Source of the DNA: a virus
Virus record (IMG/VR): IMGVR_UViG_3300030390_000115
Span: 3,860 to 26,315 of that record
DNA: 22,456 bases
Direction: 5' to 3' (one strand)
Part shown: positions 423-19,858 of the stretch, one piece after another
How the letters are laid out: each line of letters starts with the position of its first letter
How positions within the stretch are numbered: position 1 is the first letter of the stretch
The notes under the pieces: generated by a model
What the model saw: only the letters and a program-made list of their open reading frames with translations
What the model was told of the DNA's origin: nothing
Database searches by the model: none
Translations under genes and position numbers: made by a program

Positions 423-1352
423 ATGGCTCTTACATTTCTTACATTAGCAAACGATGTTATTACTCGTATGAATGAAGTATCACTTACTTCTGCTACATTT
501 GCAGATGCTAGGGGCGTACAGATACAATGTAAAAATGCAGTTAATGAAGCAATAAGACATATTAATCAAAAAGAATTTGGTTATCCATTTAACCATGCAA
601 GTAATAGTTCTACACTAGTTCCCGGTACTTCAAGATATACAGTTCCTACTAGCACTAAACATATTGACTACAATACAGCTAGAATAAAAAAAGATGCCGA
701 TCTTAATACATCAGGTGGTAACCTTGCAAAATTAGATTATAATGAATACATAAACAAAGAGTTTGCAAATCAAGAAGATGAAGTAGAGGCAACTACATTA
801 AATGGTTCTTTAACTGATAGTGCAACTACAATTACTGTAGTAAGTACATCGGGCTTTGATACTTCTGGTACTCTCTTTATACTTGGTGAACAAATATTAT
901 ATACAGGAGTTACGTCTACTACATTTACAGGATGTACTAGAGCTTCTAATAGCACTACAGCCGCTGCACATGCGTCAGGTGTACAGGTAGCATCCTTTAC
1001 AAACGGTGGTGTACCTCAGTTTATTGTACGTACACTAGATAATAACTACCTACTGTATCCACTTCCTGATAAACAATACACATTGGCATTTGATTACTTT
1101 ACATTTCCAAATGATTTAACTGCACATGATGACACTACAACTATACCTGAAAGATTTTTACCTGTAATTGTAGATGGTGCTACGGCATTTGTATATCAGT
1201 ATCGTGGTGAAATGCAACAGTATCAATTAAACTTTGAAAGGTTTGAGGACGGTATTAAAAATATACAGAGCTTACTTATTAACAAATATGAATATGTTAG
1301 GTCAACAGTTATAAATAGACCTAGTAAATACAATGTTGGAATTACTTTTTAA
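423..1352 (+). CDS. Head-tail connector / tail tubular protein A-like
   Basis: A 309-residue protein, preceded by AAGGA six bases before ATG. Residues 1-120 and 192-309 look like the two halves of the podovirus adaptor family that sits under the portal (T7 gp11/P22 gp4-type role): a helical start with a conserved-looking NEAIRHINQKEFGYPF segment, then a C-terminal part containing LLYPLPD and FDYFTFP and helices with ERFLPVIVDGATAFVYQYRG. Between them, residues about 122-191 form a beta-rich insertion (TITVVSTSGF, ILGEQILYTGV, TFTGCTRA) that also occurs in the next protein. That insertion explains why the protein is longer than typical adaptors of about 200 residues. Its stop overlaps the next start (TAATG), implying translational coupling. 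The family call rests on remembered patterns and gene order. Confidence 0.6.
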   Translation: MALTFLTLANDVITRMNEVSLTSATFADARGVQIQCKNAVNEAIRHINQKEFGYPFNHASNSSTLVPGTSRYTVPTSTKHIDYNTARIKKDADLNTSGGNLAKLDYNEYINKEFANQEDEVEATTLNGSLTDSATTITVVSTSGFDTSGTLFILGEQILYTGVTSTTFTGCTRASNSTTAAAHASGVQVASFTNGGVPQFIVRTLDNNYLLYPLPDKQYTLAFDYFTFPNDLTAHDDTTTIPERFLPVIVDGATAFVYQYRGEMQQYQLNFERFEDGIKNIQSLLINKYEYVRSTVINRPSKYNVGITF

Positions 1353-3097: not shown

Positions 3098-5542
3098 ATG
3101 GGTGCTACATACACAAGACAATCAACCTTTACAGATGGAGATGTTATTACATCTGCTTTGTTTAACGATGAGTACGATCAGTTATTAGCTGCATTTGCTT
3201 CTAGTACAGGACACACACACGATGGGACTGCCGCTGAAGGTGGTCCAATAAGTAAACTATTAGCTGACACTATTACAATAGGTACAGGTGCAGGTGATAT
3301 ATCTCTTGTGTTTGATGGGGCAGATAGTGACGGTACGTTAAAGTGGATGGAAGATGAAGACTACTTTGAGTTTTCTGATGATATACTTATTGCTACTACT
3401 GAGAAGTTACAGTTTCGTGATACTGCTATATACATTAACTCATCTGCTGATGGTCAACTTGATCTCGTAGCTGATACAGAAATACAAATTGCAGCTACTA
3501 CGATTGACATGAATGGTGCAGTAGATATATCTGGCAACCTTGATATAGGTGGTAATCTTGCAGTTACAGGTACTACTACATTTAATGGTGGTACACTCAC
3601 ACTTGGATCAGACGCAAGTGACAATGTTGTGTTTGGTTCAGATGTAAACTCTAGCATTATTCCTAATACAGATTCTACATTTGACCTTGGTTCGTCAACT
3701 CAAGAGTGGCGTGATTTATTTATAGATGGTACAGCACACATAGATACTCTTGATGTAGATGAAAATGCTACAGTAGCAGGTACGCTAGGTGTTACAGGAG
3801 TATTAACTACTACAGCTACACAGGTAGCAACTGGTGGAATTACAAGTGGTTCAAATATTGTTTCTGACACAGATAGCACTGACGATCTTGGTACAACAAG
3901 TGTTCGCTGGGCTAACTTGTTTGTTGATGGTATTACCGCAACTGATCAAATAACAGCTACTGGATTTACTGGTACACTAGACGGTATTCTTGGGTCTGGT
4001 GCCGCCGCCGCTGCAACTGTAACATCTCTTAATACAAGTGGTGTTGTTAACTTAAACCTTACTACCGACTCAACTAGCTCAACTTCAGGTGCTTTAATTG
4101 TTGATGGTGGTGTTGGTATAGCTAAGAAGTTATTTGTTGGTACAGACCTAGACGTTAATGGTACAACCAACCTAGACGTAGTAGACATAGACGGTGCTGT
4201 TAACATGGCAACGACTGCATTAGTTACAGGTGTTTTAACTACAACTGCAGCTACTGTCTTTAACGGAGGGTTTGCATCTAATGCTGATTCTACAATGGGT
4301 ACAGATAAAAAGTTAATTTTCCGTGATTCTGCAATACACATTAGTTCAACTGCTGATGGTGATATGAGCATTGCTGCCGATGATGAAATAGACTTAACTT
4401 CAACATTGATTGATATTAACGGCAATGTAGAAATTAGTGGTACTACTACGCAGACAGGTGTAATTACAGCTAACGCTGGTGTAGTCGTAGATGAGATGAC
4501 CCTTGATGCTGATACACTCACAGCTACTGATGACTTTATACTAGACGTAGCAGGTGATGTAGAAATTAATGCAGATGGTGGTACTATTACCTTTAAGGAT
4601 GCTAGTAGTTCACTAGGTACAATTACTTCTAGTGGTTACTCAGGTACTGCTGCAGTTGCTACTACTGTTACAATAACTGATAATGAAAACACTAATGAGA
4701 ATAATGCAATCATCTTTGCTGCAGGGGCAGATCAAGATGGTGGTAATATTGGTTTAGAGTCTGATGGAACTTTAACTTATAATCCTAGTACAGGAACTTT
4801 AAGTGCAACTAATATTTCTGTAACTGGTACACTTAGTACTGTAGACTCAGTTACAATGAGTGCTAACAATGCTGTTGTATTTGAAGGTGCTACTGCTGAT
4901 GCTCACGAAACTACACTTACAGTTGTAGACCCTACAGCAGATAGAACAATTACTTTACCTAACCAATCTGGTACTGTGCCTGTACTAGCAGTAGCAAGTA
5001 ACACTGCAGTCACAAGTACACCAGAAGAACTAAACGTATTAGATGGCATTACTGCAGTTGTAGGTGAACTAAACGCACTAGACATTGGTAGCACTGCTGT
5101 TGGTACTGCTGTAGCATCTAAGGCTGTTATACTAGACTCAAATAAAGACTACACAGGTATTCGTAACCTTACTATAACTGGTGAGTTAGATGCAGCCACT
5201 TTAGATATTAGTGGTGCTATTGATGTTGCAGGTACTGCTAACTTAGATGTGGTAGATATTGATGGCGCAGTGGATATGGCGTCTACATTACAAGTAGATG
5301 GCGTAGCTACCTTTACAGCTATTCCAATAGCTAATGCAGGTATATCTGTAAAGAATGGAGCTACCTCTGCTGGATTTGTATCATTCTTTGAAGACTCAGA
5401 TAACGGAAGCAACTCAGTAAAACTAATAGGACCAGCATCTACTGCAGATGTAACCTTGACTTTACCTGCAGTTACAGGTACAATAGCAACTGTTGCAGCA
5501 GCAATAGACGAAGCCACAGCCCTTGCCATTGCGCTTGGTTGA
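3098..5542 (+). CDS. Large repeat-rich tail fibre / appendage protein
   Basis: An 814-residue, very Thr/Asp/Gly/Val-rich protein. Residues 1-60 form a head of the type FTDGDVITSALFNDEYDQLL then GHTHDG, common at the start of marine phage fibre genes and probably the virion attachment part. The rest is a beta-structured shaft of recurring modules: a segment of FRD(T/S)AI type at residues 104-148 and again at 406-450; units resembling DSTFDLGSSTQEWRDLFIDG at about 184-211 and 255-280; VTGVLTTTA units; and PEELNVLDGI/GELNALDIG units near the C-terminus. The end (TLTLPAVTGTIATVAAA) is a widespread fibre terminus. ATG directly follows the previous stop (TAAATG), with AGGAG upstream. It probably forms a trimeric fibre contacting the host surface; the receptor is unknown. 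Confidence 0.7.
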   Translation: MGATYTRQSTFTDGDVITSALFNDEYDQLLAAFASSTGHTHDGTAAEGGPISKLLADTITIGTGAGDISLVFDGADSDGTLKWMEDEDYFEFSDDILIATTEKLQFRDTAIYINSSADGQLDLVADTEIQIAATTIDMNGAVDISGNLDIGGNLAVTGTTTFNGGTLTLGSDASDNVVFGSDVNSSIIPNTDSTFDLGSSTQEWRDLFIDGTAHIDTLDVDENATVAGTLGVTGVLTTTATQVATGGITSGSNIVSDTDSTDDLGTTSVRWANLFVDGITATDQITATGFTGTLDGILGSGAAAAATVTSLNTSGVVNLNLTTDSTSSTSGALIVDGGVGIAKKLFVGTDLDVNGTTNLDVVDIDGAVNMATTALVTGVLTTTAATVFNGGFASNADSTMGTDKKLIFRDSAIHISSTADGDMSIAADDEIDLTSTLIDINGNVEISGTTTQTGVITANAGVVVDEMTLDADTLTATDDFILDVAGDVEINADGGTITFKDASSSLGTITSSGYSGTAAVATTVTITDNENTNENNAIIFAAGADQDGGNIGLESDGTLTYNPSTGTLSATNISVTGTLSTVDSVTMSANNAVVFEGATADAHETTLTVVDPTADRTITLPNQSGTVPVLAVASNTAVTSTPEELNVLDGITAVVGELNALDIGSTAVGTAVASKAVILDSNKDYTGIRNLTITGELDAATLDISGAIDVAGTANLDVVDIDGAVDMASTLQVDGVATFTAIPIANAGISVKNGATSAGFVSFFEDSDNGSNSVKLIGPASTADVTLTLPAVTGTIATVAAAIDEATALAIALG
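3407..4447 (+). repeat. Internal duplicated fibre module in the 814-aa gene
   Basis: Residues 104-148 (bases 3407-3541) and 406-450 (bases 4313-4447) are two copies of one 45-residue module. Both begin L-x-FRD(T/S)AI-x-I, continue with (S/T)ADG and end in a DI-x-G-x-V-(D/E)-ISG pattern. The copies have diverged at many third positions, so the duplication is not recent. They bracket other repeat units and show that the shaft grew by module duplication. Confidence 0.7.
5456..5484 (+). promoter_or_regulatory. Possible sigma70 promoter inside the end of the fibre gene (weak)
   Basis: TTGACT (5456-5461), a 17-base spacer and TACAAT (5479-5484) match the sigma70 hexamers at five of six positions each and would start transcripts near 5491, ahead of the 118-aa gene at 5557. 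However, the same bases encode the common fibre-end peptide LTLPAVTGTIAT, so the match may be chance. Confidence 0.22.
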
Positions 5543-5556
5543 TATAGGAGAAAACA

Positions 5557-5913
5557 ATGGCTAATACATTTAAAACAATTACAAGAGATGTAGCACCAAA
5601 TGCTGCAGGTACACCTGAAGTATTATACACTGTGCAAAGTAGTACTAGGATTGTTATCTTAGGACTAACACTGGCTAACGTACACACAGCACAAGTTACT
5701 GCTTCTGTTACTTTAGTGAGTACAGTTACACAGACATCTCAGACACAAAACACTACAGCGCACTTAATTAAAGATGCAGCTATACCAGTGGGTTCTACGC
5801 TGGCTGTTCTTGACGGTAAAATCGTAGCTAATGCAGGTGACGTTATTAAGGTTGACTGTTCAGTTGCAGACAAAGTTTCGGTGATAATGAGCTATATGGA
5901 GATTGACAGCTAA
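5557..5913 (+). CDS. Small virion structural protein, fibre-associated
   Basis: A 118-residue protein with a good ribosome site (AGGAG, six bases before ATG). The sequence alternates hydrophobic and polar residues and is Thr/Val-rich (ILGLTLANVH, TASVTLVSTV, GDVIKVDCSV), indicating a single compact beta-sandwich. It has no signal peptide or membrane segment. Small proteins of this kind (starting MANTFK and ending with a predicted strand such as SVIMSYMEI) recur among marine phage fibre genes, but I know no assigned function. It sits between two fibre genes and its stop overlaps the next start (TAATG), so it is probably made together with the 427-aa fibre and could be a fibre cap, adaptor or decoration protein. 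The placement is inference. Confidence 0.6.
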   Translation: MANTFKTITRDVAPNAAGTPEVLYTVQSSTRIVILGLTLANVHTAQVTASVTLVSTVTQTSQTQNTTAHLIKDAAIPVGSTLAVLDGKIVANAGDVIKVDCSVADKVSVIMSYMEIDS

Positions 5914-5929
5914 TGGCAGGATATATAGG
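5910..5929 (+). repeat. Duplicated gene-start sequence, copy 1
   Basis: CTAATGGCAGG, followed after the next base by TAT-x-TAGG, spans the stop/start junction and first codons of the 427-aa fibre. The same sequence recurs at 8847-8866 at the start of the 699-aa fibre. It encodes the shared MAGY(I/L)G anchor and may be a point at which fibre genes recombine. Confidence 0.6.
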
Positions 5930-7196
5930 CACACAGGCTGTAAGTGTAAACACTACGTCAGCTACTATCTCTGATGATCTAGCAGTAGGTGATGATGCAA
6001 CTATTGCTGGTACTCTTGGTGTAACAGGCGTTTTGACCACCACGGCTGCAACTGTGTTTAACGGTGGGTTTGCTGCTAACGATGGTTCTACAATTACAAC
6101 TGCTGATAACAGTGTACAGCTTACACTTATTTCTACTGATGCTGATGCTGGTAGTGGGCCAATCATGAACTTCTATCGTAACTCTTCAAGTCCTGCTGAT
6201 GGAGACTCTATTGGAGTTTTTGAATTCATAGGAAGAAATGATAATAGTCAAGATGTAACAGCCATTCAAATAGAAACAAAAATGACGGATGTTTCTGATG
6301 GGGATGAAGATGCTTCTTTCTCAATGGGAATTAGAAGGGCAGGAGCTTTTATAGATGCCCTATCTTTTGACCCAACTGAAACAGTATTTAATGATACTGG
6401 TGCTAACGTAGACTTCCGTGTTGAAGGTGACACAGATCAACACGCCTTATTTGTTGAAGGTGAAACAGATAGAGTAAGTATTGGTTCTAATGACCCACCG
6501 ATGAAACTAACAGTGCGAAACGGTTCTGCTAATAGCGATATAGTTAAGTTTACAGGAGATGGCACAGGTGCTGGATTAACTATTTCAACAGCAGCAACCA
6601 CAAGAGCAGATGACACGGTTATCTTCAAAGCCTCTGACGCATTTGGTGAGCTTTCCTTTGTATCAGATAATACTGAAGTCCTTAGATTAAACAAAGATAA
6701 TCAAGCAACACTAACCAACGGCCTCACACTCACAGACGGAAACCTAGTAGTCGCAAACGGTCACGGCATTGATTTTGGTGCACAGACAGACGCTAATAGT
6801 GTATCAGGTACAACTGTTGGTGCTGAATTGCTAGATCACTATGAAGAAGGTACTTGGACTCCTGCACTTCTTGATGGTACTTCAGTTACTGTTAATGATG
6901 CTCATTACACAAGAATTGGTCGTGTAGTGCATATAGGAATGTCTATAGTTGGTGCAAGTAATAGCAGTTCTAATGCTATACTATTCACAGGATTACCTTT
7001 TGGTGTAATCAATGGAAATGACCAAGCGTTTGGACTAACAGTAGCTAACACTAGTGTGGGTACAGATAACATATACTTTGCTTTTCTTAGAAATACCTCC
7101 CAAATAGGCTGTGGAACAAACGCAAATACGGATATTGCAACCAGCGTTCTTTCAACAAAAAAACTTTGTATGTCAGGATATTATTTTGTTGCATAA
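5913..7196 (+). CDS. Tail fibre with C-terminal receptor-binding-type module
   Basis: A 427-residue protein that starts at the overlapping TAATG. Residues 1-10 (MAGYIGTQAV) form a short anchor also seen at the start of the 699-aa fibre. Residues about 20-65 repeat a shaft unit of the 814-aa fibre (GTLGVTGVLTTTAATVFNGG). Residues about 66-270 are a beta-rich shaft (VEGDTDQHALFVEGETDRVS, SDNTEVLRLNKDNQATLTNG). From about 285 the C-terminal module begins with VGAELLDHYEEGTWTPAL, a pattern common at the tips of marine phage fibres, and continues as a compact beta domain (HYTRIGRVVHIGMSIVG, ILFTGLPFGV) to the end. Bases about 6140-6760 use GGA/GGG glycine codons much more than the GGT-rich flanks, suggesting that the middle was acquired separately. 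Host-receptor binding is likely but the ligand is unknown. Confidence 0.65.
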   Translation: MAGYIGTQAVSVNTTSATISDDLAVGDDATIAGTLGVTGVLTTTAATVFNGGFAANDGSTITTADNSVQLTLISTDADAGSGPIMNFYRNSSSPADGDSIGVFEFIGRNDNSQDVTAIQIETKMTDVSDGDEDASFSMGIRRAGAFIDALSFDPTETVFNDTGANVDFRVEGDTDQHALFVEGETDRVSIGSNDPPMKLTVRNGSANSDIVKFTGDGTGAGLTISTAATTRADDTVIFKASDAFGELSFVSDNTEVLRLNKDNQATLTNGLTLTDGNLVVANGHGIDFGAQTDANSVSGTTVGAELLDHYEEGTWTPALLDGTSVTVNDAHYTRIGRVVHIGMSIVGASNSSSNAILFTGLPFGVINGNDQAFGLTVANTSVGTDNIYFAFLRNTSQIGCGTNANTDIATSVLSTKKLCMSGYYFVA

Positions 7197-8670: not shown

Positions 8671-8850
8671 ATGACTTATACATCATATCAATTTTATCCA
8701 GACTCACCATCAACAGGTGCAATTAGTTGTGTTAAAGGAACAGATTCTGATGGTAAAAAACATTGCATACCATTCAGTGATGGCAACACAGACTATCAAG
8801 AGTATCTTGAGTGGGTAGCTAAAGGCAACACAGCAGAGGATGCAGACTAA
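8671..8850 (+). CDS. 59-aa small protein in fibre cassette
   Basis: A short gene of 59 codons plus stop. ATG 8671 has CGGAG eight bases upstream, within the end of the preceding gene, and the TAA overlaps the next ATG (TAATG at 8848-8852), filling the gap between the 365-aa and 699-aa genes exactly. Both junctions support it as real. The protein starts MTYTSYQFYPDSPSTGAISC and ends with an acidic segment, TDYQEYLEWVAKGNTAEDAD, of a type I recall from small proteins in marine phage fibre regions. It has two cysteines (20 and 32) and no membrane segment. The function is unknown; a fibre adaptor or assembly partner is possible. Confidence 0.7.
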   Translation: MTYTSYQFYPDSPSTGAISCVKGTDSDGKKHCIPFSDGNTDYQEYLEWVAKGNTAEDAD

Positions 8851-8866
8851 TGGCAGGTTATTTAGG
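8847..8866 (+). repeat. Duplicated gene-start sequence, copy 2
   Basis: This is the second copy of CTAATGGCAGG followed after one base by TAT-x-TAGG, here at the start of the 699-aa fibre (copy 1 at 5910-5929). The match covers the stop codon of the upstream gene, the start codon and the first codons; the proteins then diverge. Confidence 0.6.
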
Positions 8867-10949
8867 ATCAGTACCAGTACCACAGGCTACGCAGCACAGA
8901 GAGAGCTTTACCTGTACTGAAGGACAGACTACGTTTAACACTGCAGGTTACACACCTCAGTTTGTGGATGTGTACCTCAATGGTTCTCACCTAAGTCCTG
9001 CTGACTTCACAGCTAGTAATGGTAGTGATGTCGTATTAGGTGTAGCTGCCAGTGCAGACGATGTGTGTGACATCATAAGTTATACACCATTTGAGGTAGC
9101 TAACCAGACGTTTACGGGTGACTTTAAAGTAGATGGTACTACATTTAATGTTGACAGCACTAATAATCGCATCGGTATTGGTACTGCAAGTCCTGCTACT
9201 GTTTTGCATATAGAAGGAACTGATGCACAAGACGTAGATTTAAGAAGAACAGGAACTCTGTCTAATAATAATAGAATAGGGCAAATTATGTTTAGGAATG
9301 ATGCTGATAGTGTAGCATCAGTTAATGCCTTTAGAGAATCTGCAGAGGATGATGCATATTTAACTTTAAACACACAACCATCTGGGGGTTCTTTATCAGA
9401 AAGACTCCGCATATCATCTACTGGCACAGTTCTCGTTGCAACTGGTTCTGACCTTGTTACAAACTCAGCCAGTGGAACCACAAATACTCGTATCGGAACA
9501 AACGCAGGAGACAGCATCGTTGCCTCTAACGCAGGGGTAAACAATGTTCTAATCGGAGTAAACGCAGGTACGGCACTAGATTCAGGTGACTCAAATATTG
9601 CCATTGGCTATCATGCATTAAAAACAGAAGATGATCATGGAGGCAATATTGCTATTGGGTCAGAGGCTCTACAAACTTTAGACGTAGGGGCTGATGGATT
9701 TAACATAGCCATTGGAAATAATGCTGGAAACGATCTCCAAACAGGACTGCGTAATGTAATTATTGGAACCAGTGCAGCAGAAGAAGCAACCACCATGGAT
9801 GACTGCGTATTTATTGGTCATAATGCTGGTGGCGATGGAGTTGTATCAGGAAACGGAAACGTTGGCATTGGTAAGGACGCAGGGGCTTCACTTGTTGCTG
9901 GACATTCAAATGTCATACTAGGTAGAGATGCAGGGCAAGCCTCAAGCACGGCATTTCAAAACGTCTTTATTGGCGAGGATGCAGGGTTCACAAATGTTGG
10001 TGGAGACACAAATACATTTGTGGGGTCGGATTGTGGATACTTAAATACAGGGGATGGAAACACCTATATAGGCAAGAACTCTGGCGAAGCTATGACCACT
10101 GGGTCTGAAAATACAATTATTGGCTCCTACAACGGAAACCAAGATAGCTTGGACATTCGCACCGCAAGCAATCGTGTTGCAATATCAGATGGTGATGGCA
10201 ATATTTGTTTATATGGAGACAATAACTCCCAAGCATTTTTTGGTGATATGGACTTAGATACTGATGGAGCTAACTTAAATGTAAATGCTACTGGCAGTTC
10301 AATGGCAGGGAATTTTTACCAAGATAATAATAATGACATTGTTCTTGTTAAAATGAGACACGCTTTTGCCACGGGTAGTCAAAAAGCAACCATGATTCAA
10401 TTTCAACAAGATAACGGCAATGAAGACGGTAGTATTAAAACTAGTGGAAGTGCAACAGAGTACAATACTTCATCAGATTACCGCCTAAAAGAAAACGTAG
10501 ATTACTCATGGGATGCAACAACTCGCCTCAAAAAACTTAAACCAGTTAGATTTAACTTTATATTAGACGAGACAAATACTTTAGTAGATGGTTTTCTAGC
10601 GCATGAAGCAGCGGAAGCTGTACCAGCGGCTGTTGATGGTGTAAAAGATGCTACTCATGTTGTTGCAAATGTTGTGTTGTCTGCAAGTGATGAAGTTATT
10701 TCTCAAGGAGTAACAAAAGAATCTTGGACAAAAAGAAAAGCAGATATTCTTTACACAGAAAATGATATTATTCCTGACGGTAAGTCTGTTGGTGATGTTA
10801 GGAAAGTTGCAAAATTTCCTTCAGACAGTACATGGGTTGCAACTCGCACTCTCCCAAAACACCAACAAATAGACCACTCTAAAATTGTGCCTTTGTTGGT
10901 TAAAACAATACTCGAATTAGAAGCTCGTATAACAGCATTAGAAGGATAA
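8850..10949 (+). CDS. Tail fibre/spike with beta-roll repeats and S74 self-cleaving chaperone
   Basis: A 699-residue protein with a clear modular plan. Residues 1-10 (MAGYLGSVPV) are a short anchor; about 15-85 form a beta adaptor domain (GYTPQFVDVYLNGSHLSPAD); about 90-200 a shaft (IGIGTASPATVLHIEG). Residues 213-429 hold thirteen (V/I)xIGxxAG-type units, mostly 17 residues apart, typical of left-handed beta-roll heads of trimeric adhesins. From 538 comes the intramolecular chaperone (peptidase S74, endosialidase type): S541-S542-D-Y-R-L-K-E-N, where Ser542 is the probable self-cleavage nucleophile. The remaining 158 residues end in a coiled coil (IVPLLVKTILELEARITALE). In this family the chaperone drives trimer folding and is cut off. 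Bases about 9470-10250 use more GGA/GGG glycine codons than the flanks, pointing to a transferred repeat module. Confidence 0.85.
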   Translation: MAGYLGSVPVPQATQHRESFTCTEGQTTFNTAGYTPQFVDVYLNGSHLSPADFTASNGSDVVLGVAASADDVCDIISYTPFEVANQTFTGDFKVDGTTFNVDSTNNRIGIGTASPATVLHIEGTDAQDVDLRRTGTLSNNNRIGQIMFRNDADSVASVNAFRESAEDDAYLTLNTQPSGGSLSERLRISSTGTVLVATGSDLVTNSASGTTNTRIGTNAGDSIVASNAGVNNVLIGVNAGTALDSGDSNIAIGYHALKTEDDHGGNIAIGSEALQTLDVGADGFNIAIGNNAGNDLQTGLRNVIIGTSAAEEATTMDDCVFIGHNAGGDGVVSGNGNVGIGKDAGASLVAGHSNVILGRDAGQASSTAFQNVFIGEDAGFTNVGGDTNTFVGSDCGYLNTGDGNTYIGKNSGEAMTTGSENTIIGSYNGNQDSLDIRTASNRVAISDGDGNICLYGDNNSQAFFGDMDLDTDGANLNVNATGSSMAGNFYQDNNNDIVLVKMRHAFATGSQKATMIQFQQDNGNEDGSIKTSGSATEYNTSSDYRLKENVDYSWDATTRLKKLKPVRFNFILDETNTLVDGFLAHEAAEAVPAAVDGVKDATHVVANVVLSASDEVISQGVTKESWTKRKADILYTENDIIPDGKSVGDVRKVAKFPSDSTWVATRTLPKHQQIDHSKIVPLLVKTILELEARITALEG
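9483..10133 (+). repeat. Thirteen 17-residue beta-roll repeats
   Basis: Residues about 212-428 of the 699-aa fibre repeat a core of (V/I)-x-I-G-x-x-A-G, with the core starting near residues 213, 233, 250, 267, 286, 303, 320, 338, 355, 372, 389, 406 and 422. Spacing is 16-20 residues and usually 17. Asn often precedes the core. The pattern fits one turn of a left-handed beta-roll per repeat, as in YadA-like heads. Confidence 0.8.
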
Positions 10950-11631: not shown

Positions 11632-12102
11632 ATGGATCCTTTTACAGCAATGGCTGCAGCTACAACTGCGTTCAAAGGAATAAAGAAGGCCGTTGAGGTA
11701 GGTAAAGACATCTCATCTATAGGTAGCACACTATCTACTTGGTCTAAAGCAGTAAGTGACATGGACTTTCTTGATGAGAAGGCTAAGAAGCCTCCGATGT
11801 ACAAGATGTTTACTAACAATCAAGCTAATGCTTTAGACATATGGACAAAGAAACAGAAGCTCAAGGAGATGAGGACAGAACTAAAGGAGTATATCTCTTT
11901 TGTTTATGGACCATCAGCTTGGAAAGAGATAGTAAAGATAGAAGCAGAGCAACGTAAAGCACAACGTGATGCAGTATACGCCAAGCAAGAGTTTATAGAT
12001 AGTTGTATTAATGGTGTACTAATAACTATAATGGTACTGGCAGGTATAGGTGCAACAATTGTTTTACTATATGTAATAGGTTCGCAGCAAGGCAAATGGT
12101 AA
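11632..12102 (+). CDS. Tail-anchored membrane protein, marine phage family
   Basis: A 156-residue protein with AAGG nine bases before ATG. Residues 1-45 are a helical, Ala/Ile-rich start (MDPFTAMAAATTAFKGIKKA) with an amphipathic character. Residues 57-120 form charged helices (WTKKQKLKEMRTELKEYI, then YGPSAWKEIVKIEAEQRK). Residues 127-149 make a clear transmembrane helix near the C-terminus (NGVLITIMVLAGIGATIVLL), leaving a seven-residue tail. Proteins with this plan, including the Trp-containing middle motif, occur widely in marine phages, but I know of no assigned function. As it follows another single-TM protein, the pair might act in lysis or at the host membrane during DNA entry. The membrane segment is seen directly; the role is inferred. 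Confidence 0.6.
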   Translation: MDPFTAMAAATTAFKGIKKAVEVGKDISSIGSTLSTWSKAVSDMDFLDEKAKKPPMYKMFTNNQANALDIWTKKQKLKEMRTELKEYISFVYGPSAWKEIVKIEAEQRKAQRDAVYAKQEFIDSCINGVLITIMVLAGIGATIVLLYVIGSQQGKW

Positions 12103-12150: not shown

Positions 12151-12170
12151 TTGTCGTATGACAATAAAAA
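12124..12170 (+). repeat. 12-base direct repeat flanking promoter
   Basis: TGACAATAAAAA occurs at 12124-12135, overlapping the -35 box, and again at 12159-12170 in the predicted leader, 35 bases apart. It could be a pair of binding sites for a phage regulator or a chance repeat in AT-rich DNA. Confidence 0.4.
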
Positions 12171-12183
12171 GAAAGATAAAAGA

Positions 12184-14196
12184 ATGATGCAGTTTCAAGG
12201 ATTTAAACCAGAAGCACAAAAGCGTATTGCTGGTAAACTAGGTTACACTGGTGACATGTCTGACTTTGATGGGTACTTAGAACAGAACCCAGATGCAAAG
12301 CAACAGATGGACATGTATAATCAACAAGCTGTAAAGATGATGCAAGGTGGTATGGTACGTAAACAGTTTGCTCCCGGTGGTGTTGTACCTCAAATTAAAA
12401 AAGATACTATTGATCGTATGGCTACAGGTGCTGTACCTGCAGGTGCAGAAGTTAAAGGCGTAGGTATAGATGAAGATAATTTAAAAGATACATTTATTTC
12501 TACATCTCAACAGAATCAAGGTATTAGAGATGCATCTGGTAATGTTGTTGGTGGAACTATAACACAACAACAACAACTTACACCCGGACAAGTAGCAGAA
12601 AGGATGCGAACAGATGGTGGTGGTGCAACAGCATCAGTAGTAGAGGGAGTACGTGGTACTGCCCCTACTGTAGCACAGGCATCTGATACAGATACGGATG
12701 CAACAGATGCTAATTTAATTAATACAGATGATCTTCGTATGGCACAAGACGATGTAAAAGAAGATGTATTAGATAAACAAAAAACAGCTAAACTTACAAC
12801 TACAAAAGATTCAGACTCTATGCTTAGAGCTTCGCAGTCTGAAAAAGATTTATTAGGTAATGTTAAAACTAGTGTATCTAATTTAGATGCTGCGCAAGGT
12901 AGTGCAATAAAAGTTAACTCACCTGCCGCACGACAGATACAAGACGGAGAAATAATTGACGGAGTAGCGGATGCAGAAAAGGCAGCTAAGTTTACTGAAC
13001 AGATACAAGCTGCAGAATCTACTCCTTCTAAACAAGCTACAGTAAAAGGGCAGCTTGAAGGTTTGATGCAAGACTTTGAAGGTGGTGAAACACCTGCATG
13101 GGCTGCAGGAGCCATGAGAGCCGCTACAACAGCTATGGCACAACGTGGGCTAGGTGCAAGTAGCATGGCAGGACAGGCTCTTATACAGGCCGCTATGGAG
13201 TCCTCACTGCCTATTGCTATGGCTGATGCTCAGACTGTTGCAGGGTTTGAAATGGCTAACCTTAGTAATAGACAACAAAGGTCTATGCTTGCTGCACAAC
13301 AACGTGCTACATTTATGGGGCAAGAGTTTGATCAAGACTTCCAATCACGTGTAGCTAACTCTGCAAGAATTGGTGACATAGCTAACATGAACTTTACTGC
13401 AGATCAACAAATTGCATTAGAGAATAGTCGTGCAGCAAATACAATGGAACTTGCAAATACATCTAACAAGCAAGCCCTTGTAATGGGTGAAGCTGCAGCA
13501 CTTGCAAACTTAGATATGGCTAATCTTAGTAACAGACAACAAGCTGCAGTACAAAATGCTCAAACTTTTTTGTCTACAGATATGGCTAACTTATCTAATG
13601 AACAACAAGTTGAATTGTTTAAAGGTCAGACACGTTCACAGTCATTGTTTAGTGATCAAGCTGCAGAAAATGCAGCACTACAATTTAATGCTACAAGTAA
13701 AAACCAAACGGATCAATTCTTTTCTAATCTAAAAGTTCAGAACAATCAATTTAATACAGCACAAGATAATGCAATGCGACAGTTTAATGCTGGCGATGAA
13801 AGTGCAATGAGTAAATTTAATGCAGAGGTAGCTAATCAACGTGATCAGTTTAATGCAACTAATTCTTTAGTAGTAGCACAAGCTAATGCAGGATGGCGTA
13901 GAGAAATTGCAACTGCAGAAACTGCAACTATAAATAGAGTTAATGAAATTAATGCAGCTAATGTACTTGCCACTTCTAATCAAGGATACGCTAACCTTTG
14001 GCAAGAGCATGGTGATCTTATGGAGTGGGCGTGGACTTCTGCAGAAGGTGAACGTGACAGACAAAATGCTGTAACACTTAGTCACTTAGCTGCAGGTAGA
14101 GAAAGAACACAAGCAGAGTACGAAGCTGACCTTGCTTCCTCTAGCGCAATAGGCGACTTTGTAGGTAAGTTGTTACTTGGAAGTTTTGGATTTTAA
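12184..14196 (+). CDS. Candidate internal virion (DNA-ejection) protein with hendecad repeats
   Basis: The start chosen is ATG 12184 (670 aa). A TTG at 12151 would extend it by 11 residues but lies at the predicted promoter start point, so it would not be transcribed from that promoter. The Shine-Dalgarno sequence is weak at both. The protein begins MMQFQGFKPEAQKRIAGKLG, then Met/Gln-rich sequence with GGMVRKQFAPGG. A polar, probably disordered stretch (about 65-290) leads to a hydrophobic Ala/Met-rich segment (AAGAMRAATTAMAQRGLGAS, MAGQALIQAAMESSLPIAMA). Bases 13246-13905 encode ten 22-residue helical repeats (MANLSNRQQ and QFNA units), and the end has Trp-rich WAWTSAEGER and GKLLLGSFGF. Long amphipathic 11-residue repeats fit a protein that inserts in or spans membranes during DNA entry. 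Families like this occur in marine phages without assigned function. Confidence 0.65.
   Translation: MMQFQGFKPEAQKRIAGKLGYTGDMSDFDGYLEQNPDAKQQMDMYNQQAVKMMQGGMVRKQFAPGGVVPQIKKDTIDRMATGAVPAGAEVKGVGIDEDNLKDTFISTSQQNQGIRDASGNVVGGTITQQQQLTPGQVAERMRTDGGGATASVVEGVRGTAPTVAQASDTDTDATDANLINTDDLRMAQDDVKEDVLDKQKTAKLTTTKDSDSMLRASQSEKDLLGNVKTSVSNLDAAQGSAIKVNSPAARQIQDGEIIDGVADAEKAAKFTEQIQAAESTPSKQATVKGQLEGLMQDFEGGETPAWAAGAMRAATTAMAQRGLGASSMAGQALIQAAMESSLPIAMADAQTVAGFEMANLSNRQQRSMLAAQQRATFMGQEFDQDFQSRVANSARIGDIANMNFTADQQIALENSRAANTMELANTSNKQALVMGEAAALANLDMANLSNRQQAAVQNAQTFLSTDMANLSNEQQVELFKGQTRSQSLFSDQAAENAALQFNATSKNQTDQFFSNLKVQNNQFNTAQDNAMRQFNAGDESAMSKFNAEVANQRDQFNATNSLVVAQANAGWRREIATAETATINRVNEINAANVLATSNQGYANLWQEHGDLMEWAWTSAEGERDRQNAVTLSHLAAGRERTQAEYEADLASSSAIGDFVGKLLLGSFGF
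13246..13905 (+). repeat. 22-residue (2 x 11) helical repeats in the 670-aa protein
   Basis: From FEMANLSNRQQ onward the protein can be written in rows of 22 residues with good register: rows starting FEMANLSNRQQ, LDMANLSNRQQ and TDMANLSNEQQ are 88 and 22 residues apart. In the last four rows an 11-residue unit shows: ALQFNATSKNQ, TDQFFSNLKVQ, NNQFNTAQDNA, MRQFNAGDESA, MSKFNAEVANQ, RDQFNATNSLV. Position 4 is nearly always Phe and position 5 mostly Asn. An 11-residue period gives almost exactly three helix turns. Confidence 0.8.
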
Positions 14197-14215: not shown

Positions 14216-14416
14216 ATGTCGTTACAAGGACAGGCAAGAACAGCTTACAAAAATTATATGGATAAAGTTATGACTAATACTTCTAGGGTAGAAGAACCTA
14301 CATCTGGTGGTTTGATGGATAGAAATAGACCAGTAGAAGAAGATACAAAAACAGATTATTTGTTAGATCAATTTAAACAATTACAAAAAATGAGAGCAGG
14401 TTTAAGAAATGGCTAA
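14216..14416 (+). CDS. Small charged protein of internal-protein cluster
   Basis: A 66-residue protein with a good ribosome site (AGGAG, seven bases before ATG). It is highly charged and probably helical at both ends (QARTAYKNYMDKVM; TDYLLDQFKQLQKMRAGLRN) with a Pro/Gly-containing acidic linker between (EEPTSGGLMDRNRPVEED). It has no membrane segment. Its last eight bases overlap the start of the next gene (ATGGCTAA), indicating coupling to the 168-aa protein. It sits among large putative internal virion proteins and could be a small assembly or scaffold partner. I do not recognise a family. Confidence 0.55.
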   Translation: MSLQGQARTAYKNYMDKVMTNTSRVEEPTSGGLMDRNRPVEEDTKTDYLLDQFKQLQKMRAGLRNG

Positions 14417-14915
14417 TACACTTTTTGATGCCCCAGTGCCGGGACAGTCTTTAACTGCAGAGTTTGGTGCAAGACCTTGGCAACAACCTGCACAGTACTC
14501 TACTGTAGAAGATGCATTTGAATATTATGCAACAAAAATTACTGACCCTAAAGTAAATGAGTCTTTACTAGATGCACTTGAGATGGGTACTCCTGTGTCC
14601 TCTATATCTGAGATACTTGTACAAAGTGGTGCAATGGAAGGTAAACACACAATAGATGTATCTATTCTTTTGTTACCTGTTATAATGGAATTAATTGCCT
14701 ACGTAGCCGATGAATCAGAAATTGAATATAACATGGGATTGACTTCTTCTCTTGAGCAAGATAAAATATCAGAAAGCAAAATAGCATTGTCTGTTAATAA
14801 ACTAAAAAAGAAAATGCCAGAAAATAATATAGAAGAACCAGAACCTACTATTGAATCTGAACCTATGTCAGAAGAAAGTATAGAACCATCTGGCCTTATG
14901 TCGAGGAGAATGTAA
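14409..14915 (+). CDS. 168-aa protein of internal-protein cluster, acidic tail
   Basis: The start overlaps the upstream gene by eight bases; an AGG lies upstream. Residues 1-35 contain FDAPVPGQSLTAEFGARPW, a motif I associate with uncharacterised structural-region proteins of marine phages. Residues 40-115 are mostly helical with one hydrophobic stretch, IDVSILLLPVIMELIAYVA (about 82-100), that could be a buried or membrane-contacting helix. The C-terminal 45 residues are low-complexity, Glu/Ser/Pro-rich and acidic (EEPEPTIESEPMSEESIEPS), ending in basic SRRM. It precedes the 395-aa gene with a TAATG overlap and a strong GAGGAG. The role is unknown, probably virion assembly or part of the ejection complex. 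Confidence 0.6.
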   Translation: MANTLFDAPVPGQSLTAEFGARPWQQPAQYSTVEDAFEYYATKITDPKVNESLLDALEMGTPVSSISEILVQSGAMEGKHTIDVSILLLPVIMELIAYVADESEIEYNMGLTSSLEQDKISESKIALSVNKLKKKMPENNIEEPEPTIESEPMSEESIEPSGLMSRRM

Positions 14916-16102
14916 TGGCAATTAATATAGGAGCATTTTTAGGTGGTATGGCTGGTGCTGGTAGCCAAATACTAGATGAACGTAGGGCGCAAAAACAAAA
15001 AGATTTAGATACAAAAGAAGCACAGCAGTGGGAAATTGCACGTGAGGGAAGACAAAATGCTGAGTACAGAAAAAGATTACGGGAAACAAATATAAAAGAA
15101 ACAGATCAGTTTACTTCTCAACTTGCGTCTTTTAATTTTACTCCAGCAAATATAACTGCCATTGCTGCAGGTGGTGCAGAAAATGTAAAGACATGGGTAG
15201 ATATTGCACTGCAACATAAAAAAAGTGGTAAAGATTTTGACATTAATCTACTTGTTAATAATAAAGTAGCCACAGATGTAGGTACAATAGCTGAAGCAAC
15301 TAATGATGTAGCAGACGCTAATCAAATAACACCAACATCTAATCAATTGTTTGCATCTATATATGAAGAAGTTGCTCCTGAGTTTAAAGATTTAAATAAT
15401 GCATATGGTTATTATCAGAATAAAGCAAATAATACTACAGGAAAAATTCAAGAAGGCTACCAAAAACAAGCAGATGATGCACTTAATTCATTAAAGGATA
15501 AAGCAGATAAATTACAAAATGATACTGGTGAAAAATCTAGTCCATTTTCAAAACCAAATATTGTTGCAATGTCAAAAGATAATAGAGAAACTGCATTGAT
15601 AGCTGCTAGAATAGGATATAATAGAGCAGAGGAACGTTTTATACGTAAAAATGGAGATGAGGGTAGATATAATATTGGTATTCTAAATGGTCTTACGATA
15701 GATGAAGCAACTAATAAATCATCAGATGGAGGGGTACATTCTAATATGTGGCAAAGTAGTACTGCTGCTAAAAGAGATGCTGCATTTAGAGGTTTAAAAA
15801 ATCATGCAGCCTTACAGTTAACTACATATTTAAATGATCCTGATGCTGGGGGTATGCTTTTAACGGCAGAAGACTTATATGAAAATGTTGCAGATGCTAA
15901 ACGTAATGACGGGTTTTTTACTACAGATGAAGTAGAACAATTATTTTCTAGGAATTTGTTACGTCTAGGTTCTGTTTACAGATATATAGCATCAAACGGT
16001 AAACAAGTAATTGCAGTATACACAGGAGATATTGGAAACATGGTTGAAGATGTTGATGGTCAACTACAATCAAATCCTGTTTACGAATACTATACAAACT
16101 AG
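14915..16102 (+). CDS. 395-aa candidate internal virion protein
   Basis: The ATG overlaps the upstream stop and has GAGGAG six bases before it, the best ribosome site of the cluster. Residues 1-25 begin with a short Gly/Ala-rich hydrophobic stretch (INIGAFLGGMAGAGSQIL) then switch to a long charged helix (DERRAQKQKDLDTKEAQQWE), a plan seen in phage internal and membrane-acting proteins. The middle (about 60-290) is mixed helical with Asn/Lys-rich linkers (NKANNTTGKIQ). The last 60 residues look more folded (RLGSVYRYIASNGKQVIAVY). No enzyme motif is visible and there is no lysozyme-like catalytic pattern. Its place between the 670-aa and 1246-aa proteins matches the middle member of an ejection-protein set such as T7 gp14-gp15-gp16, but this is analogy by position only. 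Confidence 0.6.
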   Translation: MAINIGAFLGGMAGAGSQILDERRAQKQKDLDTKEAQQWEIAREGRQNAEYRKRLRETNIKETDQFTSQLASFNFTPANITAIAAGGAENVKTWVDIALQHKKSGKDFDINLLVNNKVATDVGTIAEATNDVADANQITPTSNQLFASIYEEVAPEFKDLNNAYGYYQNKANNTTGKIQEGYQKQADDALNSLKDKADKLQNDTGEKSSPFSKPNIVAMSKDNRETALIAARIGYNRAEERFIRKNGDEGRYNIGILNGLTIDEATNKSSDGGVHSNMWQSSTAAKRDAAFRGLKNHAALQLTTYLNDPDAGGMLLTAEDLYENVADAKRNDGFFTTDEVEQLFSRNLLRLGSVYRYIASNGKQVIAVYTGDIGNMVEDVDGQLQSNPVYEYYTN

Positions 16103-16117
16103 GATATATAATATACA

Positions 16118-19100
16118 ATGGCTGATCCAGTATTATTAAATACATCAAATTTAAAACCTATGTTTAAAGTTGCAGAGGAAGAAGATAGTAATACTAATAA
16201 CAATATAAATAATATTAATACTATTTCAAACTCTAACTTAAATACATCAACTTTAAAACCTATGTTTAAAATTACAGAGGAAGAGGAAGTAGATGACAGT
16301 AGGTGGGAAACAGACCCTACTACAAATATTAATTTAAACCCTATAAATCTTAGCGGTCAAACATCTTCTGCTTTAGGTAAGATACCTACATCAACTCCAA
16401 TGATTGCAGAAGAAATTGATTCTAGAATACAAATAAAATTTGAGGAACAGAGGGATGCCACAAATGCTAGGATAGCAGAAAGTGAGTATGCTAAAATTGT
16501 ATCTGAAGAACACGCAATACAACTTAAAGAAAGATTAGCAGAACTAAAAAGCCGTAACATGACGGTAGAAGAAGCTAGAGAAAAAGCAGCTATGAGAGGG
16601 CCAGATGCTTTAGCTAACTTTGAATCTAACTTTGCCTCTCCAGAAGTTGTAGGAGAACAGAAAAGAAAAGAAAGTGAAGAGTGGTCTGAGACTGCAAGAG
16701 ATCGGTTAGTTGCAAGATTAAATAGTCCTAACATGATTACTAGTGGAATTACAGATCAGTTACTTGATGGACCACTTACTCTCTCTGAAATAAACACATT
16801 AGTAATGACGGATGAATTTCTTAATCCAGCAACTTCTCTTGTTGAGATACCAGTACACTACGCTAACTTTCAAGAAGCTCTAAAGGAAGGACGTTATTGG
16901 GCAGCTTCAGGAAACCTTGCAATGATTGGTATAGAAGCAGCTTCTGCAACTGTAGTGTTAAAGCCTATAAATAAAGGAATAACAGCAACATGGAAATTAG
17001 CAGGTGGAGGAAAACAAAAAGGCTATGATGCAGTACAGTTAGCAATAAAAAATGAAACAGAATTATACGACAAAATTACTGCAGCAAATAAAGTAATTGC
17101 AGATGCTAATGCAGAAATGCGTTCTGACTATATTATAGAATATGAAAGAAGAATAAATTCTATAAGAAAAGACGCAGGTGAACCTCCTATCTCTATATCT
17201 AAACAAGATGAAACCACAGGTCTGTTTAGTATTGATACTGAAAAAACTAGAGAACAAGGTTCTATGATTGTAACGGATGCTTACAGAACCTCAGATAGAA
17301 CAGACGCTGCAGGTCAAAATTTAGATAAGATGGACCTAGAAAATCTAGGCATGGGTACAGATAATATAGCTATTCCTATATTAAAACCAGAAAAGCTAGA
17401 TGCATTAATAGCAATTGCCACTACATTAAAAAAAGAAAATCCAAACTCTTTTAAACGATCAAAGGGAAAAACACTAATAGATAATCTTTTTGAGTTAACA
17501 GTTGATAAAGATTTACTTGCTAGTGATGAACTTCTTGATATGTTAAACAAACATGGAATGTCTTATGAAGAATACATATTAGGTGTAGTAGGTTCTGGCT
17601 CTGAAGCAGGTAGACTTCTTCAGAAGTTAAGTCAGGTAGGTCGTGCTAGACCTAAATCGTTAACGGACATGCGTCAAAATCAAAAACTTGCTACAGAAAA
17701 AAGCATACGTAGTATATTTGAAAGTACTGTTATACGTGTAGAGGGTGCTAGAAGAGGTATACTTGTATCATCATGGGCAACTACTGCCAGAAACATAACT
17801 AGTGCTGCAATAGTACAACCCATGCACAGTATTGCTAACCTTGCAGATGCTGTATTAATAGCAGGAAGGAGCAAAGATAATGTTTCAGGTTCTGTTCTAT
17901 CGGGACTGTATACCTTGGGTAGTAAAAGTACATGGAAAGGTTCTTTTTCAAATTTAATTTACATATTTAAAGATCAGGAATATGCAAAGGAAATGACGGA
18001 GTATATACTTAAGTATCCCGAACTGTCTGGGCAATACAAAAAAATGTTTGATGGTATAGGTGAAATACAAACTAATCTTGGCAGGGGTCAAGCAACTACT
18101 AGGACAGGAAAAATTCTTGATGGTAGTATGAGTAAGATAGAAGATGGTGTGCAGTTTTTAAACATTCCTAATAGGTGGCAAGATCACGTTATGCGAAGGG
18201 GAACTTTTGTAGCTGAGTTAGAAAGAAGATTTAAACTAGAATACGGACAAGACTTACAACAATTAATAAAAGAGGGTAAGATACAAGAAATACTTAATGA
18301 CACTTCTAATATTAGACCTGATGGTGCGCCTTCATTCTTAACGTTAGTAGAAGAGGCAACAAAAAAATCAATGGACCTTACTTTTGCAGGTACTCCTAAT
18401 AACAAAGTGTTAGAGAACATAAGTAATACAATTGTAAAGTCTGGTGTAGGAACAATGTTTGTACCCTTTCCTAGATTTGTAATGACTAGCCTTGAGTGGA
18501 TGGGTGATCATACTACAGGTGCATTTCAAGTACCTTTAAGAAAAGCACTATTAAAAAGTAGAAATGCCGATTTGCCAGAGAAAATGCAAAAAGATTTTAT
18601 TGAATTATCTCCTGTACAGTTTAATAAAAAATATAAAAAAACTAAGGATCAAGTTCGTAAAGAAGCAGGGTCTTATACCACTAGAGATAGAGAACAGATT
18701 ACTAGAAACTTAGTTGGTTGGGCTGCTATAGCAGGGATATATCAATTAAGAGATACAGAGGGTATGTCCTCAGACTATAAAAGATTTACACTTAAGTCCG
18801 AAAATGAAAATGGAGAGGTTACTACAGAAGACTTAGATGTAACTGCACAGTATCCAATGCGACAAATGAGTTGGATTGCAGAGTATCTTAGAAGAAGTAA
18901 TATTGTAGGGGATGGTACTCTTGGTTCTTGGGCAGGTTTTAATTTTAAAGAAGTATTAGAAACCTTTACAGGTATACAGGCAAGAACCGGCACAACTAAT
19001 ATTTGGGTTGAGGAAATTCAAAATTTTATAGGTGGTATGAAAGCAGAAGATAAAGAAAATACTGCATCTTTTGATAAGATATTTGGTAGATTCATAGGAC

Positions 19101-19858
19101 AGTATGCTGCTTCAGCATTTGTACCAATGACGCAGATTGTTACTGCCCAACGTGCTATGGGAATACGTAGTGAAGAAATGAAAGACCACGCAGATTTGTA
19201 TGCACCTAGTACTAATTTGGAAGGTCAGTTTAGTTCTAACATGAGTAGATCATTCTTTCAAAATGAATTATTTATTGCTCCATCTACTATAAATGCCCTT
19301 AATGAAAGAGAAACATTAGCAAAAGAAAATCCAAAAAGAATTAAACAAGGCATGAAGTTATTTTTTGGTTTAAACTACTACGAAAGTGATCCATCTGACA
19401 TAGACTTCTTAAAAGAAATAGGTTGGACTGATCCTACATATTCTCTAGGTAGTAGAAAAAAAGAAAAGTCTGCTAAAAATTATGTGAACAGAGAGTTAAG
19501 TAAAATTTTACCTGACATGGTAGGCACTGCTAAAAGAGAAGCAAGACTTGTAGCAAAAAAATGGAAAACTAATCCTTACTTACAAAAGACATACAAAACA
19601 GAAAGAGCAGCCTTTAATACTGTAGCAAGACAATACATAAAGGATCAGTTTAATAACTTTAAAACAGAGATAAGCAAAGAGGCAGACTTAGAAGTTAATG
19701 AACTAGCTCTTGTTCTTAGAAAGTATAAAGCTATGAGTGATACAAGTTCAGAGGCGGCGCTCCTTGAATTTCGTAAACAAGAAAAAAGAGAGCCTGTATG
19801 GAGTAACATTGACGACTTAGAGGACTTAATTTTTTATGGTAGAAACATAGAGAAATAA
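16118..19858 (+). CDS. Giant internal virion protein, candidate DNA-ejection component
   Basis: A 1246-residue protein and the largest in the window. ATG 16118 has only a weak AGGA 13 bases upstream. Residues 7-23 and 41-57 are two copies of LNTSxLKPMFK(V/I)xEEE joined by an Asn-rich linker. Residues 100-175 form a charged coiled coil (SEEHAIQLKERLAELKSRN). About 265-300 is a hydrophobic Ala/Ile-rich segment. Residues near 541-585 hold GARRGILVSSWATTARNIT then QPMHSIANLADAVLIAG, and near 775 FVPFPRFVMTSLEWMGDHTT; both are patterns I recall from giant proteins of marine phages. The C-terminus is charged and helical. I see no transglycosylase or protease motif. Size, late position and association with helical-repeat proteins suggest an ejectosome component comparable in role to T7 gp16. 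It ends immediately before the terminator. Confidence 0.65.
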   Translation: MADPVLLNTSNLKPMFKVAEEEDSNTNNNINNINTISNSNLNTSTLKPMFKITEEEEVDDSRWETDPTTNINLNPINLSGQTSSALGKIPTSTPMIAEEIDSRIQIKFEEQRDATNARIAESEYAKIVSEEHAIQLKERLAELKSRNMTVEEAREKAAMRGPDALANFESNFASPEVVGEQKRKESEEWSETARDRLVARLNSPNMITSGITDQLLDGPLTLSEINTLVMTDEFLNPATSLVEIPVHYANFQEALKEGRYWAASGNLAMIGIEAASATVVLKPINKGITATWKLAGGGKQKGYDAVQLAIKNETELYDKITAANKVIADANAEMRSDYIIEYERRINSIRKDAGEPPISISKQDETTGLFSIDTEKTREQGSMIVTDAYRTSDRTDAAGQNLDKMDLENLGMGTDNIAIPILKPEKLDALIAIATTLKKENPNSFKRSKGKTLIDNLFELTVDKDLLASDELLDMLNKHGMSYEEYILGVVGSGSEAGRLLQKLSQVGRARPKSLTDMRQNQKLATEKSIRSIFESTVIRVEGARRGILVSSWATTARNITSAAIVQPMHSIANLADAVLIAGRSKDNVSGSVLSGLYTLGSKSTWKGSFSNLIYIFKDQEYAKEMTEYILKYPELSGQYKKMFDGIGEIQTNLGRGQATTRTGKILDGSMSKIEDGVQFLNIPNRWQDHVMRRGTFVAELERRFKLEYGQDLQQLIKEGKIQEILNDTSNIRPDGAPSFLTLVEEATKKSMDLTFAGTPNNKVLENISNTIVKSGVGTMFVPFPRFVMTSLEWMGDHTTGAFQVPLRKALLKSRNADLPEKMQKDFIELSPVQFNKKYKKTKDQVRKEAGSYTTRDREQITRNLVGWAAIAGIYQLRDTEGMSSDYKRFTLKSENENGEVTTEDLDVTAQYPMRQMSWIAEYLRRSNIVGDGTLGSWAGFNFKEVLETFTGIQARTGTTNIWVEEIQNFIGGMKAEDKENTASFDKIFGRFIGQYAASAFVPMTQIVTAQRAMGIRSEEMKDHADLYAPSTNLEGQFSSNMSRSFFQNELFIAPSTINALNERETLAKENPKRIKQGMKLFFGLNYYESDPSDIDFLKEIGWTDPTYSLGSRKKEKSAKNYVNRELSKILPDMVGTAKREARLVAKKWKTNPYLQKTYKTERAAFNTVARQYIKDQFNNFKTEISKEADLEVNELALVLRKYKAMSDTSSEAALLEFRKQEKREPVWSNIDDLEDLIFYGRNIEK
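16136..16287 (+). repeat. Two near-identical ~50-base repeats at the start of the 1246-aa gene
   Basis: Bases from about 16136 and from about 16238 are two copies of one sequence, 102 bases apart. Both read TTAAATACATCAA, a short difference, then TTTAAAACCTATGTTTAAA, and end in CAGAGGAAGA. They encode LNTS(N/T)LKPMFK(V/I)xEEE twice. The AT-rich spacer encodes a run of Asn, Ile and Ser. High identity at third positions suggests a recent duplication or strong constraint. Confidence 0.8.

Follow-up and report, generated by a model that had tools for sequence, protein, structure and literature searches.

Hendecad arrays of quantised length in a putative ejection protein of HMO-2011-type phages

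The viral DNA analysed here encodes a protein with a long array of 11-residue (hendecad) repeats, and this feature is real, conserved and quantised: the length of the array is fixed within a lineage and changes between lineages in whole hendecads. We infer an internal protein of the virion that is ejected and whose copies assemble by means of the repeats. More precisely, we give a probability of about one half to the reading that it is encoded by the first gene of the internal (ejection) cassette of HMO-2011-type podophages, and that it forms a helical rod which is ejected and assembles for DNA delivery. The window, i.e. the whole stretch of 22,456 nucleotides that was analysed (positions 3,860 to 26,315 of record IMGVR_UViG_3300030390_000115), belongs to a 26.3 kb virus record of the HMO-2011 type. 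By tblastn, the array protein matched gp25 of Puniceispirillum phage HMO-2011 and gp35 of Roseobacter phage CRP-1 at 50-52% with 97% query coverage, and the gene order around its gene is that of HMO-2011.

Tail-fibre genes lie upstream of the array gene, between the nozzle gene and the array protein. The latter is followed by four more genes on the same strand and then by a converging block in which a MazG-like gene and a ribonucleotide reductase are encoded. The features of the window relevant here are the following.

423-1352: SU10-type adaptor (Pfam, E = 6.8e-15).
1352-3097: tail/nozzle protein (phrog_5107; also weak internal-virion-protein and Hc3 matches).
3098-5542 and 5913-7196: fibre-like genes with near-identical segments in common (AGTLGVTGVLTTTA... 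and TTAATVFNGGFA).
8850-10949: tail-fibre-like protein of 699 aa, whose C-terminal end is an S74-like chaperone segment (SDYRLKENV...).
11632-12102: cassette-side protein of 156 aa with one strongly hydrophobic helix (KD 2.56).
12151..14196, + strand: array protein, an ORF of 681 aa from TTG, homologue of HMO-2011 gp25 (YP_008320287.1, 'hypothetical').
14216..14416, + strand: cassette gene 2, 66 aa.
14409..14915, + strand: cassette gene 3, 168 aa (FDAPVPGQSLT...), with a hydrophobic helix at residues 82-100 (KD 2.14).
14915..16102, + strand: cassette gene 4, 395 aa, of a length that varies by lineage.
16118..19858, + strand: cassette gene 5, 1246 aa, the last gene of the cassette.

The near-identical segments suggest recombination between the neighbouring fibre genes. 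The 168-aa cassette protein has 191 distinct relatives in the fetched loci. For the array protein itself, the likely start is the ATG at 12184, because the start of most relatives aligns with M12. Its parts, numbered on the 681-aa ORF, are as follows.

12193..12345, + strand: small helical domain at the N-terminus, residues 15-65, modelled with more confidence than the rest of the protein (pLDDT about 70-89).
13036..13248, + strand: conserved 'head' module preceding the array, residues 296-366.
13201..13647, + strand: N-array, residues ~351-499, made of 22-residue (2 x 11) units of the MANLSNRQQ type.
13648..13680, + strand: hinge motif FSDQAAENAAL between the sub-arrays, residues 500-510.
13663..13893, + strand: C-array, residues 505-581, made of 11-residue QFNA units.
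13894..14070, + strand: C-terminal cap, residues 582-640 (WRREIATA...AYANLW...MEWAW), used as an anchor in the length test.
14131..14193, + strand: Gly/Ala-rich hydrophobic C-terminus, residues 661-681 (KD 1.12).

The head module carries the motifs VKGQL..L..F, PAWAAGAMR, RGLGASSMAGQA and PIA..DA. Direct homologues, at 25-64% identity, were found in CRP, HTVC, phiM6, CHOED, MQM1 and Slicky01 phages as well as in HMO-2011 gp25; they differ from the window protein in array length and in C-terminal additions, and in nothing essential. Nearly all are annotated 'hypothetical', although the ctYwJ313 homologue (locus L166, 7047-9638) has been mis-named 'huntingtin' and Aeromonas phage 1233 (OR359403.1, 60761-61675) has the homologous stretch without an annotated gene. 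A C-terminal extension (KFCWVAREVYGEGDPRW...) present in HMO-2011 gp25 (locus L082) and in several relatives of more than 700 aa is absent from the window protein, as is an S74 domain, and neither PHROGs nor Pfam gave a match to the window protein. When bacterial genomes were scanned for relatives, only scattered contigs were recovered, mostly in metagenome bins; these are probably viral contigs binned with bacteria, and we therefore draw no host inference from them.

The repeat was first noticed at 13246-13905 (residues 366-585) in an initial annotation made from the sequence alone, which described a long array held in an 11/22-residue register. That description was borne out, and the register is stronger than could be seen at that stage. 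MANLSNRQQ is indeed found twice, at residues 368 and 456, and is followed by MANLSNEQQ at 478, giving the reported spacings of 88 and 22, and QFN(A/T)-type units follow one another every 11 residues from residue 512 to 569. The annotation had also suggested a comparison with shuffled sequence. In a BLOSUM62 autocorrelation of residues 366-585 against 2000 shuffles, with a 99% null maximum over all lags of 3.96, the z-scores reached 7.9 at lag 22, 5.6 at lag 44, 4.8 at lag 33, 4.7 at lag 66, 4.2 at lag 88 and 4.1 at lag 11. Lag 55 fell just below the all-lag threshold, so that the multiples of 11 up to 66 other than this one, plus 88, are significant. There was no heptad signal in the same residues, lags 7 and 18 not being raised, and the same autocorrelation detected no 11-residue period in the 395- and 1246-aa proteins encoded downstream in the window. 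A profile built only from relatives with other array lengths found the same register in the window protein from residue ~351 to ~603, the C-array register going on weakly to the latter (13959); the array is thus slightly longer than first noted, extending over about 13201-13959.

Relatives were collected from viral contigs, phage records and genome contigs, and array length was taken as the distance from the proline of the PIA motif (residue 354) to the tryptophan of the WRR motif (residue 582). Among 212 proteins (91 at <80% identity), a count that leaves out 12 further proteins lacking an anchor motif, we found 17 distinct array lengths: 151, 162, 173, 184, 228, 239, 250, 272, 305, 316, 338, 415, 426, 448, 536, 756 and 866 residues. 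With these strict anchors, all 17 are equal to 8 modulo 11. As controls, the lengths from the start to PIA (121 distinct values) and from WRR to the stop (43 distinct values) were spread over all eleven remainders. The nominal chance of such agreement was 2e-16 for the 16 lengths known when it was computed, which is an upper bound on the surprise since shared ancestry makes the lengths non-independent. When the arrays were split at the hinge, the N-array spanned 60-764 residues and the C-array 70, 81, 92, 103, 114 or 125, each sub-array stepping by 11 in nearly every length class in which the hinge was cleanly located (in two classes the search for it landed elsewhere). Five off-grid lengths obtained with a loose N-terminal anchor were artefacts: three resulted from a wrong upstream P.WA anchor and the other two, in phiM6 and CRP-738, from a one-residue gap before the array. 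Off-grid values from a loose C-terminal anchor were likewise false, and all lengths agree under the strict anchors.

In the pooled residue composition of 84 non-redundant arrays, each hendecad has one position at which Asn makes up 64-83%. In the C-array the position before it is Phe (67%) and the one after it Ala (66%), so that each hendecad has one Phe and one Asn, while two Gln positions (47-51%) and three apolar positions are prominent in the N-array. If the helix makes three turns per 11 residues, the apolar positions of the N-array fall on two opposite faces and those of the C-array on one narrow stripe. For large apolar residues, 98 degrees is the strongest harmonic only in the C-array and is near the minimum in the N-array; Kyte-Doolittle power over the array peaks at 131 and 163 degrees, not at 98. 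A single amphipathic face at ~98 degrees per residue is thus not confirmed for the array as a whole, and the likeness to apolipoproteins raised initially fits the C-array at best. Two-faced helices would be expected, for instance, in helical sheets or barrels, where each helix touches a neighbour on either side. The Ala/Met-rich stretch just before the array, described initially as a hydrophobic segment, is not predicted to be a membrane helix (best 19-residue KD mean 0.91).

The helical nature of the array is supported, at low confidence, by two AlphaFold2 models, one of the full protein (44 sequences, pTM 0.25) and one of residues 292-681 (89 sequences, pTM 0.27). Both are all-helical, without strands, and have helices of up to 163 residues (485-647); the pLDDT of the array is mostly 45-75, and at such pTM values the packing of the helices is not predicted. 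A PDB sequence search with the family profile returned nothing, and a PDB fold search gave two matches (best E 6.8) that are meaningless with the model used. Four significant matches were obtained in a fold search of viral models, three of them to nameless proteins, one of which has the length of the CHOED protein, and one to an uncultured phage protein.

Four indirect lines of evidence favour an internal, ejected protein. In the phages examined (HMO-2011, CRP-1, CRP-738, HTVC103P, phiM6, CHOED, MQM1 and Slicky01) the cassette is conserved in its arrangement: the array gene comes first, small genes follow, the next gene encodes ~400-800 aa, and the final one >800 aa. In the last-gene family, one member has a match to phrog_6651 'internal virion protein' that is limited to 58 residues (E = 6.8e-6). 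The array proteins of CRP-738, CRP-3, CRP-235 and CRP-212 end in an S74 domain that closely resembles the one at the C-terminus of proteins annotated for DNA ejection in Salmonella phage 7-11, Pseudoalteromonas phage H6/1 and Vibrio phage 199E37-1. In H6/1 and 199E37-1, another part of this S74-bearing protein also matches the P22 gp7 family, and its gene comes first among three ejection genes. Pseudoalteromonas phage Y3 has a remote relative (locus L265, 11509-13068) that keeps the head module but contains a different, non-hendecad helical region; a few genes further downstream, Y3 encodes a 3421-aa 'DdrB-like' protein. The ejection role for which the protein was originally put forward is thus indirectly supported by its position in the cassette, by an S74 domain common to annotated ejection proteins and by one weak internal-virion-protein match; we found no virion proteomics of the HMO-2011-type group in the papers searched. 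From this context, a role in DNA delivery is the likeliest reading.

Under this reading, the rod would run from a variable N-terminus through the head module, N-array, hinge, C-array and cap to the glycine-rich hydrophobic end, with an S74 domain added at its end in some lineages. The protein would be present in the virion, packed in the head, and ejected ahead of the DNA. Several copies could then associate via hendecad seams into a multi-helix rod or tube that aids DNA delivery, the N-array helices being able to contact neighbours on two sides. Eleven residues correspond to three helical turns. We propose that lengths step by 11 because one unit more or less would keep both ends of the rod in rotational register with the supercoil.

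The steps could also be the mere by-product of unequal recombination in a neutral spacer, a loose helix without length-dependent function. Recombination between units adds whole units, and unequal recombination between repeats could by itself favour whole-unit steps. Moreover, the two longest members, L239 (317-5755, array of 866 aa) and L189 (1317-6353, 756), have a super-period of 55 residues (five hendecads) and in-phase duplications of 220 and 330 residues, the best copies of which are about 70% DNA-identical over 132 nt, so segmental duplication in phase does happen. However, neither the window gene nor that of L239 has detectable tandem repeats in the DNA of its array; the periodicity is thus one of protein sequence, and slippage at the DNA level was rejected as the source of the 11-residue steps in these two genes. 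Units are also conserved in place, those at the same position in different phages being 70.5% identical as against 20.1% for different units of one protein and 10.1% for shuffled ones, and 43 arrays that are mutually <80% identical all have 228 residues without any indel. This speaks for selection on length and phase, the lack of small indels arguing for the latter, and makes a neutral spacer rather improbable. The length data bear equally on the straight trans-envelope channel of fixed length that follows from the initial annotation, in which each helix crosses the whole envelope. A 228-aa array as one helix would measure ~34 nm, which is about the thickness of the Gram-negative envelope, and long helices are predicted. 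However, arrays in related phages vary 5.7-fold, from 151 to 866 residues. Unless folded back in hairpins, the longest would reach about 130 nm, several times the width of any envelope. One straight rod spanning the envelope is therefore unlikely for the whole family, and we regard such a channel as most improbable.

An external fibre is possible, if unlikely; the array would then be a trimeric right-handed coiled-coil stalk and S74 its trimerisation chaperone. The array gene comes just after the tail-fibre genes, one subgroup has a C-terminal S74 that matches mainly tail fibres (the domain is commoner there than in ejection proteins), and the core-position Asn and unit-wise length variation of the array are usual in trimeric stalks. 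However, S74 is missing from most members and the CRP-738 copy matches ejection proteins too, the window has a separate S74-type fibre gene (8850-10949), the genes directly downstream of the array gene form an internal-protein-like cassette, and the N-array has two apolar faces rather than one. The array may instead act as a ruler of the tape-measure kind, in which the hendecad count would determine how long an internal core, an extended tail or a trans-envelope conduit becomes, with the Phe or Asn residues at their regular spacing being read by bound partners. The single Phe in each C-array hendecad and the fixed, quantised lengths are consistent with this, as some tape-measure proteins of long-tailed phages have a variable number of 11-aa repeats with Trp/Phe markers (PMC3271669). 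However, HMO-2011-type phages are described as short-tailed (PMC9038755). MQM1 is referred to as a podophage. Each of the four near-complete records checked (arrays of 228, 272, 316 and 426 residues) has a nozzle homologue, while the 27-kb fragments holding the two longest arrays, which are incomplete, gave no nozzle match. The array protein matched no tape-measure family in PHROGs or Pfam. At a rise of 1.5 A per residue, one straight helix would span 23 nm (151 aa) to 130 nm (866 aa), and to our knowledge nothing in this range is known in a podovirus. Such a ruler is distinctly unlikely. A tape measure without a tail, i.e. an ejectable ruler whose hendecad count would set the length of the DNA-delivery assembly in 11-residue steps over the 5.7-fold range, seems doubtful.

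A rod whose length changes by just three helical turns per step provides a natural length series. Cultured phages have arrays of 151 (phiM6), 162 (CRP-738), 173 (CHOED), 184 (MQM1 and Slicky01), 228 (HMO-2011 and CRP-1) and 316 residues (HTVC103P), so array length can be compared with core or conduit size by direct measurement. The strength of the finding is that a mechanical question becomes measurable in cultured phages, for a protein annotated 'hypothetical' in a group described as among the most abundant of marine viruses (PMC9038755).

The genome paper on HMO-2011-type phages reports core genes of unknown function (PMC9038755); by term search we found no description of the array there, nor did we find one in other published work. 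Published ejection proteins differ in size between phages, and the review of them does not mention hendecads (PMC8954989). The array protein resembles T7 gp14, gp15 and gp16 in its predicted helicity and in belonging to a cassette downstream of the nozzle that has a >1000-aa protein last. In contrast, there is no profile similarity to these proteins (hhalign probabilities of 0.2-1.1%) and none of them has an 11-residue period; the same autocorrelation found none in P22 gp20, to which no similarity was detected either. An architecture unlike T7 gp15/gp16, as initially suggested, thus holds in the narrow sense that neither the three T7 proteins nor P22 gp20 showed any detected similarity to the array protein.

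With the P22 gp7 class (phrog_598) and Salmonella phage 7-11 gp020 (phrog_4287), the array protein shares its probable place as first gene of an ejection cassette, a Gly-rich hydrophobic C-terminus and, in some members of both groups, S74. However, no homology is detectable outside S74, and the gp7-class proteins inspected are without a long array. A likeness of the head module to P22 gp7 was rejected (hhalign score of 10.5 against up to 18.8 for column-shuffled controls), and one to 7-11 gp020 seen by eye (TVKxQ...L..D, then GxxGSSxAGxA) was not significant.

Tape-measure proteins differ from the array protein in that the array phages are short-tailed with a nozzle and have no long tail, in that the array protein has a second sub-array of 22-residue Asn/Gln units, and in the neighbourhood of the gene. 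Yet the array protein is, like them, the probable product of a late virion gene, both have a variable number of 11-residue repeats and an aromatic marker at a fixed position, and both show segmental duplications in multiples of 11, as reported for tape-measure proteins by Belcaid et al. 2011 (PMC3271669). The tape-measure 11-residue repeat is therefore the nearest precedent, the likeness being one of pattern and not of sequence.
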